Of a DNA stretch of 64,000 nucleotides, positions 43,122-58,664 are shown piece after piece. Location of the stretch: the NCBI RefSeq assembly GCF_016653405.1, contig NZ_NHSN01000025.1:310001-374000 (forward strand), in the 5' to 3' direction. The DNA comes from Halorhodospira halophila (GTDB lineage Bacteria; Pseudomonadota; Gammaproteobacteria; Nitrococcales; Halorhodospiraceae). Within the stretch, counting starts at the first letter, position 1. Each line of letters begins with the position of its first letter. Below the pieces are notes generated by a model. That model did not search any database, had not been told where the DNA came from, and saw only the letters and a list, made by a program, of their open reading frames with translations. A program made the translations under genes and the position numbers.

Positions 43122-44879
43122 TCACTGCTGCAGCACGTAGGTGCCGGGGGCGTCGGTCAGCGGCTGGTACGAGCCCTCGCTCTGCCCCACGCCGGGCGGC
43201 GCCACACGGTTGCCCGAACGCTCGCGCAGCCACTGCTCCCACTCCGGCCACCACGAGCCCTGCTGCTCCGTCGCCTTCTCGAGAAAGACATGGGAAGGCA
43301 CGTAGGGATCACCGATCCGCCGCGCCAAGCTGCGGTAGATGCGGCGGGGATGCCCCGGCGGCGTGACGATGCCGGCGTTGTGCCCGCCCTGGGTGAGGGC
43401 AAAGGTGACATCGGCGCGCGGCAGGAAGCGGTTGATCTTGTAGACCGAGCGCCAGGGCGCGATGTGGTCCTTTTCGGTGCCTACGGCAAAGGTCGGCACC
43501 TGGATATCGCCGATGTGGATCGGCTGACCACCGACGTCGTAGCGATCCTCGACGAAGTCGTTGTTCAGGAACAGATCCCGCAAGTACTCGCTGTGCATGC
43601 GGTACGGCAGCCGGGTGGTATCGGCGTTCCAGGCCATCAGGTCGATGACCGGGCTGCGCTGGCCCATGAGGTAGTCGTGGATCAGCCGCGAGTAGATCAG
43701 GTCCTTGGAGCGCAGCAGCTGGAACGCACCGGCCATCTTGGCGCCGTCCAGGTAGCCCTCCTCCCACATCATGTCCTCGAGGAAGGTAACCTGGCTCTCG
43801 TCGATGAATAGGTCCAGCTCGCCCGGCTCGGTGAAGTCGGCCTGGGCGGCGAGCAGGGTCATCGTGGCTAGGCGGTCGTCACCGTCGCGGGCCATGGTGG
43901 CCGCGGCCAGCATCAGCAGCGTGCCCCCCAGACAGTAGCCGACGGCGTGGATCTGGCGCTCCGGCACGATGGTCGAGACCGCATCCAGGGCGTCCATGAC
44001 ACCGTCCCGGCGGTAGGTGTCCATGCCCAGGTCGCGATCTTCGCGCCCCGGATTCTTCCAGGAGATGACGAAGACCGTGTGGCCCTTGCCCACCAGGTAC
44101 TCGATGAGCGACTTGCCCGGACGCAGATCGAGGATGTAGTACTTCATGATCCACGCCGGGCAGATGAGGATCGGCTCCGGGTAGACGGTCTTGGTGGTGG
44201 GTTCGTACTGGATCAGCTCCATGATCCGGTTGCGGTAAACCACCTTGCCCGGTGTCACCGCCAGGTTCTCGCCCACCTTCCACTGCTCGGCGCCCACCGG
44301 CGCGCGGCCGCTGATCGTGCGCTCGCTGTCCTCGAGCAGGTTGGCGAACCCCTGTACCAGGTTGGCACCGCCCTGGCTGAGGGTCTCGTCGAGGACCTCG
44401 GGGTTGGTGGGCAGGAAGTTGGACGGCGAGTAGAAGTCGAGCACCTGCCGGCCCATGAAGTTAACCACGTCCTCGTGGTGCTGGCTCACCCCACGAATGC
44501 CCGTCGTGGCGCTGTGCCACCACTGCTGGGTCAGCAGGAAGCCCTGCTCAAGCACGTCGTAGGGGAAACGGTGCCACTGCTCGGCGCTGAAACGGTCGTC
44601 CCCGGACCACGGCTTGGTGCAGGGCTCCGGGCAGGTGCCGGTCAGGCGACTAAAGACGTAGGCGTTGTAGCGCAGGGTGTTGCGCATCGCCTCGTCCATG
44701 AGCGCGAACTGCTTGCCCGGGTGGCTGGACAGATGCACGGCCCAGTCGAAGGTGGCCAGCGACAACGCCGCCGGCGACAGCCCGAGGGTCATCCGGCCCA
44801 GGCCGGCGTGGAACAGGCGATCAACGGTCAGCGCTTCGCGCTCACCTTCCTCGAACTCGGGCATCAGGGGGTGGACCAT
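43122..44879 (-). CDS. phaC: Class I-type polyhydroxyalkanoate synthase, copy 1
   Basis: PHA synthase of 585 residues that polymerises (R)-3-hydroxyacyl-CoA into storage granules. The alpha/beta-hydrolase fold is visible with the lipase-like box GYCLGG (catalytic Cys), the Asp of TEKDHIAPW and the His of QGGHNAGIVTPP. The N-terminal part (WAVHLSSHPGKQFALMDEAMRN) is PhaC-like. ATG 44879 is used; ATG 44864 is an alternative. The operon phaC-pta-ackA has no phasin or phaAB. It is clearly diverged from the copy at 56859-58664, for example NAG instead of IAG after the catalytic His. Confidence 0.9.
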   Translation of the reverse strand: MVHPLMPEFEEGEREALTVDRLFHAGLGRMTLGLSPAALSLATFDWAVHLSSHPGKQFALMDEAMRNTLRYNAYVFSRLTGTCPEPCTKPWSGDDRFSAEQWHRFPYDVLEQGFLLTQQWWHSATTGIRGVSQHHEDVVNFMGRQVLDFYSPSNFLPTNPEVLDETLSQGGANLVQGFANLLEDSERTISGRAPVGAEQWKVGENLAVTPGKVVYRNRIMELIQYEPTTKTVYPEPILICPAWIMKYYILDLRPGKSLIEYLVGKGHTVFVISWKNPGREDRDLGMDTYRRDGVMDALDAVSTIVPERQIHAVGYCLGGTLLMLAAATMARDGDDRLATMTLLAAQADFTEPGELDLFIDESQVTFLEDMMWEEGYLDGAKMAGAFQLLRSKDLIYSRLIHDYLMGQRSPVIDLMAWNADTTRLPYRMHSEYLRDLFLNNDFVEDRYDVGGQPIHIGDIQVPTFAVGTEKDHIAPWRSVYKINRFLPRADVTFALTQGGHNAGIVTPPGHPRRIYRSLARRIGDPYVPSHVFLEKATEQQGSWWPEWEQWLRERSGNRVAPPGVGQSEGSYQPLTDAPGTYVLQQ

Positions 44880-44946
44880 GGTGGGGCTTCCTCGACGTTG
44901 CCAACGGGCCGCTCGCGGCGCCCGCGGGCGCCGTGTCGCACTGCAC

Positions 44947-44975
44947 AATCTGGCCCCGGAAGCGCTGCGTGTCAA
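44947..44975 (-). promoter_or_regulatory. Candidate sigma-70 promoter of the phaC-pta-ackA operon
   Basis: On the minus strand a full consensus TTGACA (44975-44970) is 17 bases from CAGATT (44952-44947, three of six). Transcription would start near 44940, about 60 bases before the phaC ATG. A perfect 7-bp GC stem with a CGCG loop (44916-44933) would lie at the 5' end of the leader. Confidence 0.45.
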
Positions 44976-44999
44976 GGAACCCCCCGCCGCAACACCGGC

Positions 45000-46289
45000 T
45001 CAGAAGGTCACCCCGGCACCAACGCTGAACATCAGTGAGCGCGGGTAGGACTCGTCGTCGTGCTCCACCGAATCCCGGGCGTAGGCCAGGTCCAGATCGA
45101 TGACCGAGAACAGCGTCAGGCCGGTGGTGATGTACTCGAGCTCGGAGCCGGTGAGATTCTTGCGGTAGCCGAAGCGCACACCGGGCAGCCAGCCCTGGGG
45201 CGGGGCGGCCGAAACACTCACCGTGGCCCACTGGTGGTCGTCGCCAAAGGCGTCCTCCACGCCGTTGGCGTCCAGCGAGCCGGCCACCACCCAGCTCCGG
45301 TCCGGGGTGTAGACGGCGCCCTCGAGACCGAGCTGCCGCTCCAGGGTGTAGTCCGGGCGGGCCTCCAGCTCACCGCTGTCGATGAACTGCGCGGCGGCAT
45401 CACAGCGCGACCGGGCGGTGCTGTCCGTATCGTAGTCATCGCAGTCCGTGCCGATGCGCCGGTAGTCGAGGCTCGGCTCGTTGACGTTGCGCAACGTCGC
45501 CCCGGCCTGCCAGCGCTCGGCCACCCACAGCGCGCCAAGGTCGACGCCGAGCCGCGTGGTGGCCTCGGTGTCGTCGCGCAGGGCGTCATCGAGGACATCG
45601 GCGGTGTCGTCATCCTCCACCTCGTCGAAGGGGATGACCGCCTGGGAGAGCTCGCCCTGGATCATGTTCAGCCGGGCACCGCCCACCAGTCGCCCCTGCT
45701 CGCGGACGACCAGCGGGCGCGCATACCCCAAGCGTAGCTCCCGGATCGTGGCATCCTGGATCTGGAAGGCCACCTCGGGATCGTCCGGATCCCAAGTGCC
45801 CCCCGGGAAACCGCCGTCGTCGAAGAGCAGGCCCAGCCGCGCCTGCCCGGAGCCGCGGGCCTCCACGGTTAGGGCGTCGCCGCGCTCCTCGCTCAGCGGC
45901 ACCACCACCGGCGTCAGCGGGAGCTGGGCGGCGCCGCCGAGCTTGAGGTAACCGTCCTCCACGGCCACCTCGAAGAAATCGATGAACTCAAGGAACTCGT
46001 CCTCCTCGTCAAGGTCCGCCTCCAGGGCGTCGTCCAGGCGGTCGATGAAACCGTCCACCGGGCCCAGCTCGGCCCCGGCGCTCACCGAGCCAAGCCCCAC
46101 GTGCCGCTGCCCGGGTCGGGCGGCGGCACCGGCGGGGTTGGCGAGCCCCCCTAGGGCGTGGGGGTGACTGGTGGCACCCAGGGTGAACCCCGGGCTCACC
46201 GCGGCGCCGGGGGCCGCCGCCAGCGCCGCGGCGGGCGCGGCGGCCACCGCCAGGGCGCCGGCCAGATACAGACTGCGACGGCGGCTCAC
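45000..46289 (-). CDS. TraF_2/FadL-like outer-membrane barrel protein, copy A
   Basis: Secreted 429-residue protein of the type annotated as conjugal transfer TraF (PF13729-like), which looks like a FadL/OmpP1-type outer-membrane barrel. Signal peptide about 1-25; LANPAGAAARPGQRHVGLGSVSAG; an acidic helical segment (DDALEADLDEEDEFLEF); strands with NVNEPSLDYRRIG and the end GSELEYITTGLTLFSVIDLDLAYARDSVEHDDESYPRSLMFSVGAGVTF in shortened form. Motifs NEPSLDY and SELxYITxGLTLFxV are shared with the gene at 48260-49741. Its start overlaps the stop of the preceding gene by four bases. No conjugation genes are nearby, so a transfer role is unlikely. Confidence 0.75.
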   Translation of the reverse strand: MSRRRSLYLAGALAVAAAPAAALAAAPGAAVSPGFTLGATSHPHALGGLANPAGAAARPGQRHVGLGSVSAGAELGPVDGFIDRLDDALEADLDEEDEFLEFIDFFEVAVEDGYLKLGGAAQLPLTPVVVPLSEERGDALTVEARGSGQARLGLLFDDGGFPGGTWDPDDPEVAFQIQDATIRELRLGYARPLVVREQGRLVGGARLNMIQGELSQAVIPFDEVEDDDTADVLDDALRDDTEATTRLGVDLGALWVAERWQAGATLRNVNEPSLDYRRIGTDCDDYDTDSTARSRCDAAAQFIDSGELEARPDYTLERQLGLEGAVYTPDRSWVVAGSLDANGVEDAFGDDHQWATVSVSAAPPQGWLPGVRFGYRKNLTGSELEYITTGLTLFSVIDLDLAYARDSVEHDDESYPRSLMFSVGAGVTF

Positions 46290-47512
46290 GATCCATCCTC
46301 CTCTGCACCGTGCCCCAGGGGTTCGCGCTGATCCCGGCCCACCAGGATGCGGACATCGGCCCCGCGGGGCAGTTCGCCCTCGGTCACCTCCTGGATCCGC
46401 TCCAGGGACTCACCCAGGGCGACGGCCTGCTCGCCGTGGCCGGGACGGTAGCGGATGTGCGTGGTCTGCTGGCCATCGCGGCCGTGCGCCGAGTCCTGGA
46501 CGCGCACCACGTAGTGCCCTTCCTCCCGTACGCGATCCGCCATGGCCCGACCCATTCCCACCTCGCCGGAGGCGTTGATGACCTCGACGTCGAGCTGCCC
46601 GGCGCGGCGGCGCAGCAGCTCGATCCGCTCGCGCTGCTCGTCGGCCCGGCCGGCCTCCATGGCGGCCCGGGCCCGGGTGCTGGCGTGGGCGGCTTCCAGG
46701 TGCTCGACCCGTGCCACCAGCTCGCGCCGCGACGGCGCCGGCTGCGGGCGGTGGGTAAGCTGGGCCGTCACGGTATTCGTGGGCTCGACCCCGCTGTCCG
46801 GCAGATCACGCCCGGCGCTGAGGGCAAGATCGATGGTGGGACCAAGGTGGAGGCGCACCCCGGGGCGCAGGGCGAGCCCGAATTGGTTCTGCACCTCGTC
46901 GCCGCTGACCCCGTAGACGGCGGCCGCCTCCAGGGTGAGATCGAGGGACGCGGCCACGCGGTGCTCGGCGCGGGCCCCGTAGCGCAGCCGGTTGACGGCG
47001 CGGTAGCCGGGCTGACCGTCGATCTCCGCCACATCGGCCCGCTCCACCGCCACACTGCTGTGCAGCCGCGTGGCGCCCAGGTCGTCGCTCAGGTGCAAGC
47101 CGAGACCAAGGTTGTGGCTGCCGCTGCCGATGCCCGAGTCGCCGTCGGCCGGGGCGACGGTGCCGTAGCCGGCCAGGGTGATGTCCGCTGCGCCCGGCTC
47201 CCGGCGCAGCGGCGTCGCCGCCTCCAGGGCCAAGTGGCGCAGGCCATTGCCGTCATCGCCCTGCGACCGGTGGTTGGCGGAGAGACCGATCTCGTAGCCG
47301 GCGGGCAACCCGTAGCGGACCCGGGGCTCGATGAGCTGCGCATCTTCCCGCTCCGAGCCCGACCAGCTCTGACGGCCAACGGACAGGGCGTGCACGGCAG
47401 CCCCATCCTCAAGAACCTCGGCGCCGCGGACCCCGGCGGGATCCGCGGCGCTGGCCGCGGTGCTCACCGCGGCCAGCAACAGGCCCAGCACTGCTACGAA
47501 TGTCCGATCCAT
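46286..47512 (-). CDS. Secreted protein: beta-barrel-like N-terminus and LytR_C-like C-terminus
   Basis: Unrecognised 408-residue protein. A signal peptide (1-22, ending ASAAD) is followed by about 250 residues of alternating beta sequence (RYGLPAGYEIGLSANHRSQ, SHNLGLGLHLSDDLGATRLHSS) like an outer-membrane barrel, then a short coiled coil (about 265-305) and a domain (about 308-395; LDVEVINASGEVGMGRAMADRV...THIRYRPGHGEQAVALGESL) resembling the LytR_C domain seen at the end of LytR-CpsA-Psr and related cell-envelope proteins. Overlaps the next gene (ATGA). It may link the outer membrane to a periplasmic or cell-wall partner; this is inference. Confidence 0.65.
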   Translation of the reverse strand: MDRTFVAVLGLLLAAVSTAASAADPAGVRGAEVLEDGAAVHALSVGRQSWSGSEREDAQLIEPRVRYGLPAGYEIGLSANHRSQGDDGNGLRHLALEAATPLRREPGAADITLAGYGTVAPADGDSGIGSGSHNLGLGLHLSDDLGATRLHSSVAVERADVAEIDGQPGYRAVNRLRYGARAEHRVAASLDLTLEAAAVYGVSGDEVQNQFGLALRPGVRLHLGPTIDLALSAGRDLPDSGVEPTNTVTAQLTHRPQPAPSRRELVARVEHLEAAHASTRARAAMEAGRADEQRERIELLRRRAGQLDVEVINASGEVGMGRAMADRVREEGHYVVRVQDSAHGRDGQQTTHIRYRPGHGEQAVALGESLERIQEVTEGELPRGADVRILVGRDQREPLGHGAEEDGS

Positions 47513-47584
47513 GGGAAGGCCTTATCGGAAAAACCTATCCCCGGTTAACGGCCGACCAACGCGCGCCTTGAATGCTGTGAAAGG

Positions 47585-48211
47585 CTACGATTCAGCATCT
47601 CCGCCGGCTTCGTCATCGGCCGCTCCCTGGCCCTCGTTCTGCTCCTCAGCCTCGTCCTGCTCCTCGGCCCGGTCCTGTTCCGCGGCAGCCTCTTCGGCCG
47701 CTTCCTCTCGCGCCGCCCGCCGGGCCTCGGCGCGCTCCCGGGCCAGCTGCTCGCGCAACTCAGTCACGCGTCCGCCAAGCTCCTCGAGCCGCTCATCATC
47801 GGCGAAGACCACCACCGCGCGGGCCTCGGTGCCCCGCACCCAAGGGTGCAGGCCGCCGACGCCGGCCAAGGCGAACCACCCCCAACCGGTAGTGCAGATC
47901 GGCTCGGCGGTGGTGGAGCCGTCGTCGAGGTTGGTCCAGCGCACGTTGATCAGAGCATTGCCACCCTTCTCCGCGGCCTGCTCGGCCAGCTCGTCGGCGA
48001 CCTGATCAACCAGCGCGTCGCAACTGGTCCAGGCAAAGCCGCGGGCCGAGGCCTCCACCGGGCCGATTTCCACGTAGGGAAGGTTGCCGGCGGTACCACC
48101 GGAGTAAAAGGCGCGCTCGTCGTAGTCGGTATAACTGGAGGTGGTGCTGCACCCCGCCGCCACCAGGCCGGCACCGACGATGGCGATGATCCCTAGGCTT
48201 TTCTGCTGCAT
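47585..48211 (-). CDS. Lipoprotein with conserved small domain and acidic coiled-coil tail
   Basis: Predicted 208-residue lipoprotein: lipobox VAAGC (about Cys20), then a domain of about 110 residues (YVEIGPVEASARGFAWTSCDALVDQVADELAEQAAEKGGNALINVRW), with paired cysteines, reminiscent of small RcsF/YbjQ-type envelope domains, and a C-terminal Glu/Ala-rich coiled coil (RVTELREQLARERAEARRA...). ATG 48211 follows GGGGGAG. It lies between the two TraF_2-like genes on the same strand, 72 bases before the LytR_C-like gene. Function unknown. Confidence 0.7.
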   Translation of the reverse strand: MQQKSLGIIAIVGAGLVAAGCSTTSSYTDYDERAFYSGGTAGNLPYVEIGPVEASARGFAWTSCDALVDQVADELAEQAAEKGGNALINVRWTNLDDGSTTAEPICTTGWGWFALAGVGGLHPWVRGTEARAVVVFADDERLEELGGRVTELREQLARERAEARRAAREEAAEEAAAEQDRAEEQDEAEEQNEGQGAADDEAGGDAES

Positions 48212-48259
48212 GGGTCTCCCCCCAAGGCAATACGTCACACATGGGCCGCCGGTGGGCGG

Positions 48260-49741
48260 CTAGAATCCGAGTTCGAGGCCGACATTGACCAGCGCCGAGC
48301 GGGGCACGGAGGAACCGTCGTGCTCCACATCGTCGGTACTCACCGCGGCGTCGATGTTCAGGACGCGGAACAGGGTCAAGCCGCCGGTGATGTACGACAG
48401 CTCGCTGCCGGCGTTATTGGTCCGGTAGCCGAGCCGGAACCCCGGCCAGAGATAGCTCTCACTGGCATAGCCCACGCCCACCGCCGTCCACTGGTACTCG
48501 TTGTTGTTCTCAGCGCCGTGGGGCCCCTCGACGCTGTTGAGATCGTGACTGAAGCCGAGCATCCAGCGCCGATTGGGCGAGTGGAGCGAAGCCTCCACCG
48601 TGCCCTGACGCTCCAGGGTGTAGCTCTTGGTGCGACTGACCCGGTCCTGCACCGAGGCAGGCAAGTCGTCGTAGCCGGCGATCTCCGGGTAGTCGAGGCT
48701 CGGCTCGTTGAGGTTCTTGCCGGTCAGCCCGACCTGGTAGTTGCGCGCCACCCAGAGCAGGCCCAGATCGACGCCGAAGGCGTCGTCGCTGGAGCGGCTG
48801 TCGGAGAAGTCGTCACTCAGGGTATCCAGCGCGTCGTCGTCGATCTCGCTGACCGCCCGGGCCATCTCGGCCTGGTAGTAGTGACCGCGGCCGCCGACGA
48901 AGAGCTCACCGTCGCGGCTGCTGTAGGTGCGGGCGGAGTAGCCGAGGGAGAAGCGCCCAATGGCGGCGGCTTCCATGTCGGAGTAGACACCAAGGCTACC
49001 GTCGGCTATGTCGACTTCGTCACCGCCCTCTTTTACGCTGTCATCGTCGATTGTCCACTCGACGCCGTCGGGGCCTGTGGCGGTGAACTTGCTACCATCT
49101 GTACCCCAATCATCCGAGCTCAGCGGGATACCGGCCAACCCGGTCTCGAAGGTCCCGTCGGTCATCACGCCAACCCGGCCACTGACGCTGCCGTGTATAT
49201 CGAAGCTCACGGCGCCGCCCAGAACGTCGTGGTTAACCACCAAGGGCGTAAGTGCACGGAAGGCACCGGTAAGGTTGAGCGCGGCGTTGTCGCCCACCGA
49301 CTGGATCAGGGTATCGCCTGCCTGCTCGACCTCAAGCAGCCGCTCAATGGAAGCGAGGAGATCCTCAAACTCTTCCAGATCACTCGGATCATCGCTTGGG
49401 CTTATATCACTGAAGTCCAAGTCTTCGACTGAGTCGCCGACCGAGTCGATCAGGGCGCTCCGGTCGACGCCCTCATCCGCCCAGGTCTCGAAGGCGTCGA
49501 GGAAGTCGTCCACCTCGCCGAGCTCATAACCGACCCCGAGGGAACCGAGGCCAAAGCGAAAGCCCCGCGGCATGGCGGCGCCGGAGGCGGGGTTGGCGAC
49601 GCTGCCCATCACCCCCTGGGTGTGGCTGATCTCACCGTAGGCGAGGTTGGCGCCGGACGGATGGTAGGGTGCGGCCAGCAGCGGTGTGCAGGCCAGGGTG
49701 GCGGCCAGGCCGGTGCCTGCACCGAGGAGTGCTCTTCTCAT
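48260..49741 (-). CDS. TraF_2/FadL-like outer-membrane barrel protein, copy B
   Basis: Secreted 493-residue protein, paralogue of the gene at 45000-46289. Signal peptide about 1-25; SVANPASGAAMPRGFRFGLGSLGVGYELGEVDDFLD; an acidic helical region (DLDFSDISPSDDPSDLEEFEDL); NLNEPSLDYPEIAGY; an end like copy A (SELSYITGGLTLFRVLNIDAAVSTDDVEHDG, final GLELGF). ATG 49741 has a purine-rich AAGGGGGA upstream. It is first in the transcription order of the four-gene cluster. Probable outer-membrane channel or export component; the substrate is unknown. Confidence 0.75.
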   Translation of the reverse strand: MRRALLGAGTGLAATLACTPLLAAPYHPSGANLAYGEISHTQGVMGSVANPASGAAMPRGFRFGLGSLGVGYELGEVDDFLDAFETWADEGVDRSALIDSVGDSVEDLDFSDISPSDDPSDLEEFEDLLASIERLLEVEQAGDTLIQSVGDNAALNLTGAFRALTPLVVNHDVLGGAVSFDIHGSVSGRVGVMTDGTFETGLAGIPLSSDDWGTDGSKFTATGPDGVEWTIDDDSVKEGGDEVDIADGSLGVYSDMEAAAIGRFSLGYSARTYSSRDGELFVGGRGHYYQAEMARAVSEIDDDALDTLSDDFSDSRSSDDAFGVDLGLLWVARNYQVGLTGKNLNEPSLDYPEIAGYDDLPASVQDRVSRTKSYTLERQGTVEASLHSPNRRWMLGFSHDLNSVEGPHGAENNNEYQWTAVGVGYASESYLWPGFRLGYRTNNAGSELSYITGGLTLFRVLNIDAAVSTDDVEHDGSSVPRSALVNVGLELGF

Positions 49742-56858: not shown

Positions 56859-58664
56859 TCAGTCGCCGTAGAGCACGCCGTGGCGGACGTAGGAGCCCGG
56901 TGCCGGCTCGATCGGGGCGTGCTTTTTCGACCCGACCTTCCGTGCAGCAACGCTCTCGCCGCCGTGGCCGGCCAGCCACTGCCCCCAGTCGTTCCACCAT
57001 GAGCCCTCGTGGGCCTCGGCCCCGGCCAGCCACTCATCCTGATCCACCGTCTTGGCGGTGTTGGTCCAGTAGCCGTACTTGTTCTTGTGGGGCGGATTGA
57101 TGACGCCGGCGATGTGGCCGGATCCGCCAAGCACGTAGCGGGTAGGACCGGAGAGCAGCCGCGGGCCACGGATGGTGCTCTTCCAGGGGGCGATGTGGTC
57201 TTCCTTGGCCGACATGAAGTAGGCCGGGATGTCGACCCGGCCCAGGTCGATGGCCTCCCCCGCCAGCTCCAGGGCACCCGGCTCCTTGAGCAGGTTGCGC
57301 TGATACATGTTGCGCAGGTAGAAGCTATGCATCTTGGCGGGCATGTTGGTGGAATCGGAGTTCCAGTAGAGCAGATCGAAGGGGAACGGCTCATCGCCCT
57401 TGAGGTAGTTGTTCACGAAGAACGACCAGATCAGGTCGTTGGCGCGGAGCATGTTGAAGGTCGTGGACATGTACCGACCCTCCAGATAGCCCTTCCGGCT
57501 CATGCGCCGCTCCAGCGTGGCGATCTGCTCCTCGTCGAGGAAGACCTCCAGCTCACCGGGGTACTCGAAGTCGAGCATGCAGGTCAGGAAGGTCGCGGCC
57601 TGAATGCGCCGGTCCCCGCGGGCCGCCAGCCAGGCCAGGGTGCAAGCCGACAGGGTCCCGCCGAGGCAGTAGCCAACCAGGTTCATCTCGTCGCTGCCGG
57701 TGATCTCCTGGACGACATCCATGGCCGTCACCGGCCCCTCGAGCATGTAATCCTCGAAGCGCTTCTCGGCCAGGCTCTCGTCGGGGTTGCGCCAGCTGAT
57801 GATGAATACGCTATGGCCCTGATCCACCAGCCACTTCACCATGGACTTCTCGCTGTTGAGATCCATGATGTAGTACTTGTTGATCCACGCCGGCACCAGC
57901 AGCAGGGGCCGCTTGTGGACCTCGGCGGTGGTGGGCTCATACTGGATGAGCTGCATGAGTTCGTTCTGGTAGACCACCTGCCCCGGGGTGGTGGCGAGGT
58001 TGGTGCCGACCTCGAAGGCGTCGTAGTCGGTCATCTTGATGTCGAGCCGGCCACGACCCCGCTTGAGGTCGTCGAGCAGATTGCTCAGCCCCTGCAGCAG
58101 GTTCTGGCCGCCGGTCTCGACAGTCTTCTCGAGCACCTCGGGGTTGGTGGCCACGAAGTTCGACGGGGCCATGGCGTCGATGAACGCCCGGGTGTAGAAA
58201 TCCACTTTCTTCTTGGTCTGATCATCGAGCCCTTCCACGTCCCGGACCACCGCGTGGGTGTGATCCGCCGCCAGGAGGTAGGACTGCTTAACGAAATCGA
58301 AGAAGGGGTGATCCTCCCAGTGCTGGTGCTGGAAGCGCCGATCCCCCTTGGCCGGCTGCGCCACCGGCTCGGACTCCAGCCCCCAGAAGCGCAGGGCCAC
58401 GTTCTGCATCAGGCTCATGTAGTCCTGCCAGAAGGACATCTGCACCTGCATCAGGCGGGCCGGATCGGCCATCACCCGCGCGCTCAGCTGCTGGAACAGC
58501 TGCGCCATCTGCGCGGCATCCTCCATGGCCACGTGGTGCGTCGACTGCTCCTGCTGCAGGAACTCCTGCACCAGCTCCTGACTCTTGGCGGTAATCTCGG
58601 TCAGCGACCGGGAGAGCGCCTCGTAATCGATGTCCTGGTTCCGGGTGCCGTTCTCTTGTGCCAT
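56859..58664 (-). CDS. phaC: Class I polyhydroxyalkanoate synthase, copy 2
   Basis: PHA synthase of 601 residues and the more typical of the two copies. Catalytic Cys in GYCLGG, Asp in AKEDHIAPW and His in GGSGHIAGVINPP are intact. The N-terminal part (about 1-120; FWQDYMSLMQNVALRFWG) is the usual class I PhaC_N. ATG 58664 has GAGGAG upstream; the frame runs on through the rsmJ region but is not used. It stands alone, divergent from rsmJ, with no phaAB or phasin gene next to it. Confidence 0.95.
   Translation of the reverse strand: MAQENGTRNQDIDYEALSRSLTEITAKSQELVQEFLQQEQSTHHVAMEDAAQMAQLFQQLSARVMADPARLMQVQMSFWQDYMSLMQNVALRFWGLESEPVAQPAKGDRRFQHQHWEDHPFFDFVKQSYLLAADHTHAVVRDVEGLDDQTKKKVDFYTRAFIDAMAPSNFVATNPEVLEKTVETGGQNLLQGLSNLLDDLKRGRGRLDIKMTDYDAFEVGTNLATTPGQVVYQNELMQLIQYEPTTAEVHKRPLLLVPAWINKYYIMDLNSEKSMVKWLVDQGHSVFIISWRNPDESLAEKRFEDYMLEGPVTAMDVVQEITGSDEMNLVGYCLGGTLSACTLAWLAARGDRRIQAATFLTCMLDFEYPGELEVFLDEEQIATLERRMSRKGYLEGRYMSTTFNMLRANDLIWSFFVNNYLKGDEPFPFDLLYWNSDSTNMPAKMHSFYLRNMYQRNLLKEPGALELAGEAIDLGRVDIPAYFMSAKEDHIAPWKSTIRGPRLLSGPTRYVLGGSGHIAGVINPPHKNKYGYWTNTAKTVDQDEWLAGAEAHEGSWWNDWGQWLAGHGGESVAARKVGSKKHAPIEPAPGSYVRHGVLYGD

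Follow-up and report, generated by a model that had tools for sequence, protein, structure and literature searches.

Four envelope genes that lie side by side in the halophilic purple bacterium Halorhodospira halophila, two of them encoding TraF_2 (PF13729) proteins, are a local joining of recurring gene pairs and not one conserved machine. The conserved units are smaller than four genes and comprise LC with T2, a TraF_2 gene with a large lipoprotein gene, and a barrel gene with LP. The two TraF_2 proteins are, by predicted structure, FadL-fold barrels and not conjugation proteins, and it is the general pairing of barrel and lipoprotein that is worth following. The genes belong to genome G000 (2.86 Mb, 99.9% complete) and are located in the window, the whole stretch of 64,000 nucleotides that was analysed, as follows:

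48260-49741, minus strand: T1, TraF_2 (PF13729) outer-membrane barrel of predicted FadL type with a signal peptide (ATG start, 493 aa)
47585-48211, minus strand: LP, small outer-membrane-type lipoprotein with the lipobox VAAGC, weak similarity to YbjQ_1 and an acidic tail (208 aa)
46286-47512, minus strand: LC, predicted barrel followed by a helix and a C-terminal LytR_C domain (408 aa)
45000-46289, minus strand: T2, TraF_2 barrel with a predicted FadL fold (GTG start, 429 aa)
44880-44999, minus strand: slot between T2 and phaC from which the large-lipoprotein gene is missing, leaving 120 nt

Layout of the Gene Cluster

All four open reading frames (ORFs), including that of the lipoprotein, share one strand, as stated in the original prediction; this is the minus strand, and transcription proceeds from right to left through T1, LP, LC, and T2. 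Gaps of 48 nt and 72 nt separate T1 from LP and LP from LC, respectively, and the four-base overlap that had been claimed is found between LC and T2, where the stop of the former and the start of the latter share GTGA. A strong AGGAGG ribosome site lies ahead of T2. This supports genetic coupling of LC and T2, and their translational coupling suggests that the two proteins are made in step. Upstream of the cluster are an FtsX-type permease and its ATPase, while phaC, encoding polyhydroxyalkanoate (PHA) synthase, and a phosphate acetyltransferase gene lie downstream. A scan for sigma-70 promoters and terminators found none (0.2 and 1.6 expected) and is uninformative. A third TraF_2 gene is located elsewhere in G000, on C14.

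The region is also bracketed by two PHA synthase-like genes (43122-44879 and 56859-58664) that lie approximately 12 kb apart and fall into the same similarity cluster. The first of these adjoins the phosphate acetyltransferase gene, and the arrangement of the two is retained in relatives. In genome G002, a TraF_2 gene of the other subfamily (L077 9423-10838; subfamilies are treated below) is found on the opposite strand between phaC and an ABC permease gene, thus the same slot is taken by different TraF_2 types across genomes.

Family and Predicted Fold of the TraF_2 Barrels

T1 and T2 match PF13729 with E values of 4.5e-35 and 9.9e-34, both above the gathering scores. Their proposed paralogy is borne out by 32% identity over 479 columns (E 1e-50), and the motifs NEPSLDY and SELxYITxGLTLFxV are visible in both. 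The AlphaFold2 model of T2, built from 8 sequences (pLDDT 71.6, pTM 0.71), contains about 14 strands, with low confidence for residues before 49. Over residues 27-429, the N-terminal hatch included, this model aligns with E. coli FadL (best Z 26.0, 287 residues, rmsd 4.7), and further fold matches are to CymD, TodX, PorV (Z 21.7), and chains of BamG (Z 21-22). N51 and P52 of an NPA-type motif are invariant in 25/25 TraF_2 sequences and resemble the NPA hatch motif of FadL, as named in the PDB titles of FadL mutant entries. The FadL family (FadL, TodX, and CymD) therefore shares with the predicted T2 a barrel of the 14-strand type, an NPA-type hatch, and a fold match over the whole length (Z 21-26). 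However, neither T1 nor T2 matches Toluene_X, the Pfam family of FadL, at E <= 1, identity in the fold alignments is 12-15%, and TraF_2 genes are paired with lipoproteins. A search with T1 against the sequences of solved structures gave nothing significant.

Conservation of the Set

The four-gene set had been proposed as a unit to be sought in other genomes. A single conserved four-gene system is rejected, as the exact set is present in none of 94 other genomes and is seen in the window genome only. Co-occurrence in relatives thus failed for the whole set and held for the smaller units. In the family sample of 12 genomes (G000-G011), the window copy of LC is present in 6/12, and in all six the T2 orthologue comes next; these orthologues form one clade (support 100/99). 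A TraF_2 gene precedes LC in 3/6 (window, G009, and G011). One ancestral T1-LC-T2 triad is rejected by the AU test (p 0.006, for a group chosen after the first tree), and since the window T1 is not orthologous to the upstream TraF_2 of G009 and G011, the triad appears to have arisen on two occasions. LP is located between T1 and LC in the window only.

Lipoproteins Behind TraF_2 Genes

Two profiles divided the TraF_2 ORFs into subfamily A (41) and subfamily B (63), from each of which two genes with under 600 nt downstream were dropped. A lipoprotein was counted as directly behind a gene when its ORF, recognized by an automatic lipobox rule, started -60 to +200 nt behind that gene. This was the case for 14/39 subfamily-A genes, compared with 9/626 controls from the same loci (odds ratio 38, p 3e-13, a value that overstates independence given the relatedness of the loci). 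No clear association was observed for subfamily B (3/61 vs 9/626 controls, p 0.08). Twelve of the 14 lipoproteins behind subfamily A are members of a single family that Pfam does not name, referred to here as the large lipoprotein. Counting against the pairing, 25/39 subfamily-A genes have no lipoprotein by the automatic rule, though three of these (L073, L089, and L176) do carry a member of the large-lipoprotein family that the lipobox rule missed. Flanks were read for 78/91 TraF_2 matches of the class sample, the window included. In two related genomes (L133 and L136), a short lipoprotein is found behind a subfamily-B TraF_2; it has what we take, from its sequence, to be a LemA-like look.

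The large lipoprotein (about 450-510 aa) is encoded behind T2 in G006, G007, G008, and G011, the last copy being cut by the contig end, while the G009 contig ends just behind T2. T2 in the window has lost this partner, which its orthologues keep. The large lipoprotein has no match anywhere in G000, so it is not needed there, and this counts against the explanation favored below. Each of the 15 copies in the fetched loci immediately follows a subfamily-A TraF_2 gene of the same orientation, a count that is one-sided if taken alone because TraF_2 or LytR_C genes served as the anchors for fetching. A reverse search of 370 genomes of the class found 6 full-length matches, all adjoining TraF_2, of which 5 had themselves been part of the search alignment; weaker matches are largely confined to the first 80 residues and lie within other large proteins. 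Among 59 relatives, all matches below 1e-6 adjoin TraF_2, several of them from the search alignment, and two weaker ones (G020 and G039:75204) are not adjacent to it.

The N-terminal 200 residues of the large lipoprotein share homology with lipoproteins that follow TraF_2 in other families (probability 99.1, E 9e-19), and the six large lipoproteins scanned against Pfam have no family above the cut-off and no enzyme domain. An aspartate follows the anchor cysteine in 14/14 aligned large lipoproteins, in a QDxG-like setting, and is a candidate address signal. An export signal of the Bacteroidota type, with at least two acidic residues among the six that follow the cysteine, is not claimed, as it is present in only 7/14.

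Including the window, five copies of LP are known, with homologs in G006, G008, G029, and G369; G333 matches LP in part only, inside an unrelated protein. In 5/5 copies, LP comes after a TraF_2 or FadL-like barrel:

Window: preceded by T1
G008: preceded by TraF_2
G006: preceded by TraF_2, with the large lipoprotein between
G029: preceded by a barrel that matches the TraF_2 profile (E 6.5e-10)
G369: preceded by an ORF cut at the contig end, whose C-terminus resembles the G029 barrel by eye

No single clade unites the barrels found ahead of LP, which counts against the explanation favored below. LP scores 22.4 bits against YbjQ_1, where the cut-off is 23. Its Pfam scan contains no enzyme domain, and the sequences of solved structures gave no useful match. 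No homology to E. coli RcsF was found with the LP profile, whose alignment to RcsF covers the signal peptide only.

The LytR_C Barrel Protein

The barrel-like N-terminus and LytR_C-like C-terminus that had been described for LC are both upheld. LC scores 39.1 bits against PF13399 (cut-off 22.2, E 1.4e-9), and its predicted architecture consists of a 12-stranded barrel (approximately residues 39-254), a 43-residue helix (262-304), and the LytR_C domain (307-394). The model was built from 4 sequences, and only one of five was good (mean pLDDT 68.4; others 49 or less). The modeled barrel reaches Z 20 to both the COG4313 channel and FapF, with which it shares a 12-stranded fold. As the fold search took in the barrel only (model residues 30-258), the assignment of LytR_C comes from Pfam; C-terminal to the barrel, the model contains a long helix and then an alpha/beta domain. 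LC gave no useful match among the sequences of solved structures.

LytR_C proteins are found in 6/39 genomes of this order, all 6 within this genus. LC-like matches occur in 13/370 genomes of the class, most spanning just the LytR_C part, and no TraF_2 gene was found beside full-length LC relatives outside the family in the loci read, a further point against the favored explanation. G000 encodes a second LytR_C barrel protein (C1 81616-82782; L059 9544-10779), which is solitary and adjoins a hemN-like gene. This solitary paralogue is present in 9/12 family genomes and is thus kept more widely than the window LC. In another family of the class, LytR_C is also carried by small lipoproteins (L123, L124, and L125, in G330, G243, and G398) whose genes adjoin one that appears CYTH-like by eye. 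They give LytR_C a second setting at the outer membrane of Gram-negative bacteria. LytR_C is found as well in a locus (L126) that looks Tad-like by eye.

The original prediction of an uncharacterized outer-membrane export or wall-linking system stands insofar as the genes form an envelope cluster. Linking of wall polymers in the manner of LCP proteins is unlikely, since no LCP catalytic domain was found in LC or in G000; of the control genomes, 7/14 were positive. The only functional hint of a wall tie for LC comes from LytR_C solo proteins of Mycobacterium that act in wall upkeep, such as VirR (PMC11832169). Like LC, VirR carries LytR_C and no LCP domain, whereas in LC, which comes from a Gram-negative, LytR_C is fused to a barrel, and no LCP partner was found in G000. 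Literature on LytR_C and the outer membrane was searched, and no barrel fusion is described among the works found. A likeness to OmpA can also be drawn, as OmpA is an outer-membrane barrel fused to a periplasmic C-terminal domain. The predicted barrel of LC has 12 strands rather than the 8 of OmpA, and LytR_C replaces the OmpA domain.

Proposed Function and Alternatives

From gene order and predicted folds, the best explanation of the cluster, held tentatively and at a little under even confidence, is that it encodes outer-membrane assemblies of barrel and lipoprotein with an LC channel alongside. Related barrels in other bacteria have matching lipoproteins as neighbors, suggesting that the two function together. 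A subfamily-A TraF_2 barrel would work with the outer-membrane lipoprotein encoded directly behind it, serving as a membrane platform that may hold its partner or bring it to the surface, as BamG holds BamH. In the window, LP would be the partner of T1. LC would form a 12-stranded channel of its own. Its helix and LytR_C domain would extend into the periplasm, where the C-terminus would probably anchor the barrel either to the wall or to some other envelope protein, much as in OmpA. The gene pairs, the overlap, and the fold matches of the predicted models are observed; physical complexes, surface exposure, and wall binding are what we infer for the four proteins.

BamG of Bacteroidota is the nearest solved analog of such a pairing of FadL-fold barrel and lipoprotein. 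Its loops bind the surface lipoprotein BamH, the N-terminus of which is wedged between two BamG strands, and BamG2 and BamH2 form a putative operon (PMC12578637). Both systems resemble TraF_2 in combining a FadL-fold barrel with an outer-membrane lipoprotein, either as neighboring genes or as bound proteins. They differ in belonging to another phylum; TraF_2 is not known to contact BamA, nor are its lipoproteins known to be related to BamH or BamH2. PorV, a component of type 9 secretion, also has the FadL fold and has been proposed to bind and shuttle substrates (PMC12578637), but no type 9 genes were recognized in the flanks of the window cluster. Slam proteins are likewise outer-membrane barrels with neighboring lipoprotein genes, which were reported adjacent to 185/353 Slams (PMC5449769), whereas neither T1 nor T2 matches DUF560 or TPR at E <= 1.

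The main rival to the holding of lipoproteins by barrels is the import of hydrophobic compounds, which is judged unlikely though it deserves serious weight. TraF_2 would take up small hydrophobic molecules, the lipoprotein would bind or cleave the substrate outside, and LC would add one more channel, of the COG4313 type. The closest solved folds agree with this, as they include FadL, CymD, and TodX for T2 and are COG4313 and FapF for LC, and in Vibrio cholerae the surface lipase VolA supplies FadL (PMC12208996). However, the Pfam scans of LP and of the six large lipoproteins gave no enzyme domain, and no catabolic operon was recognized in the flanks read.

It is distinctly unlikely that there is no joint machine at all, T1, T2, LP, and LC having met by chance near phaC and acting independently. 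The restriction of the exact set to one genome, the separate origin of T1 and the upstream TraF_2 of G009 and G011, and the solitary paralogue and other solitary relatives of LC are in keeping with such independence. Set against this are the invariable succession of LC and T2, the position of LP behind a barrel in every copy, the enrichment of lipoproteins behind subfamily A, and the placement of TraF_2 upstream of LC-T2 twice independently.

That TraF_2 is a conjugation or pilus part, as its Pfam name says, is extremely improbable given the FadL fold of the predicted T2 model, the lack of any relative of T2 or of the C14 TraF_2 among 72,556 plasmid records, and flanks in which, as originally claimed, genes for conjugation, a secretion ATPase, or pili were not recognized, nor any transfer gene beside the orthologues in the loci read. 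The suspicion that the TraF label misleads is thus well founded.

Meaning for the TraF_2 Family

Beyond barrel/lipoprotein assemblies in this cluster, a wider reading may be entertained as a long shot. TraF_2 subfamily A would be a Slam-independent, FadL-fold route that takes cognate lipoproteins to the gammaproteobacterial surface or keeps them there, with the lipoprotein address behind the cysteine, and Halorhodospira would add a wall-tethered channel. No description of such a route was found in the literature searched, which also contained nothing relevant on PF13729 proteins, TraF-type outer-membrane barrels, FadL/lipoprotein gene pairs, or the Halorhodospira outer membrane.

Although PF13729 is named after a conjugation protein, it occurs in 62/370 genomes of an evenly drawn sample of the class, and two queries from it had no plasmid match. 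Through a FadL-fold identity, in some cases with a dedicated lipoprotein, a mislabeled family would gain a testable function, and so would two lipoprotein families that lack names. The TraF_2/lipoprotein pairs are compact enough for testing in E. coli, and they bear on how lipoproteins may cross the outer membrane beyond the Slam and Bacteroidota systems.
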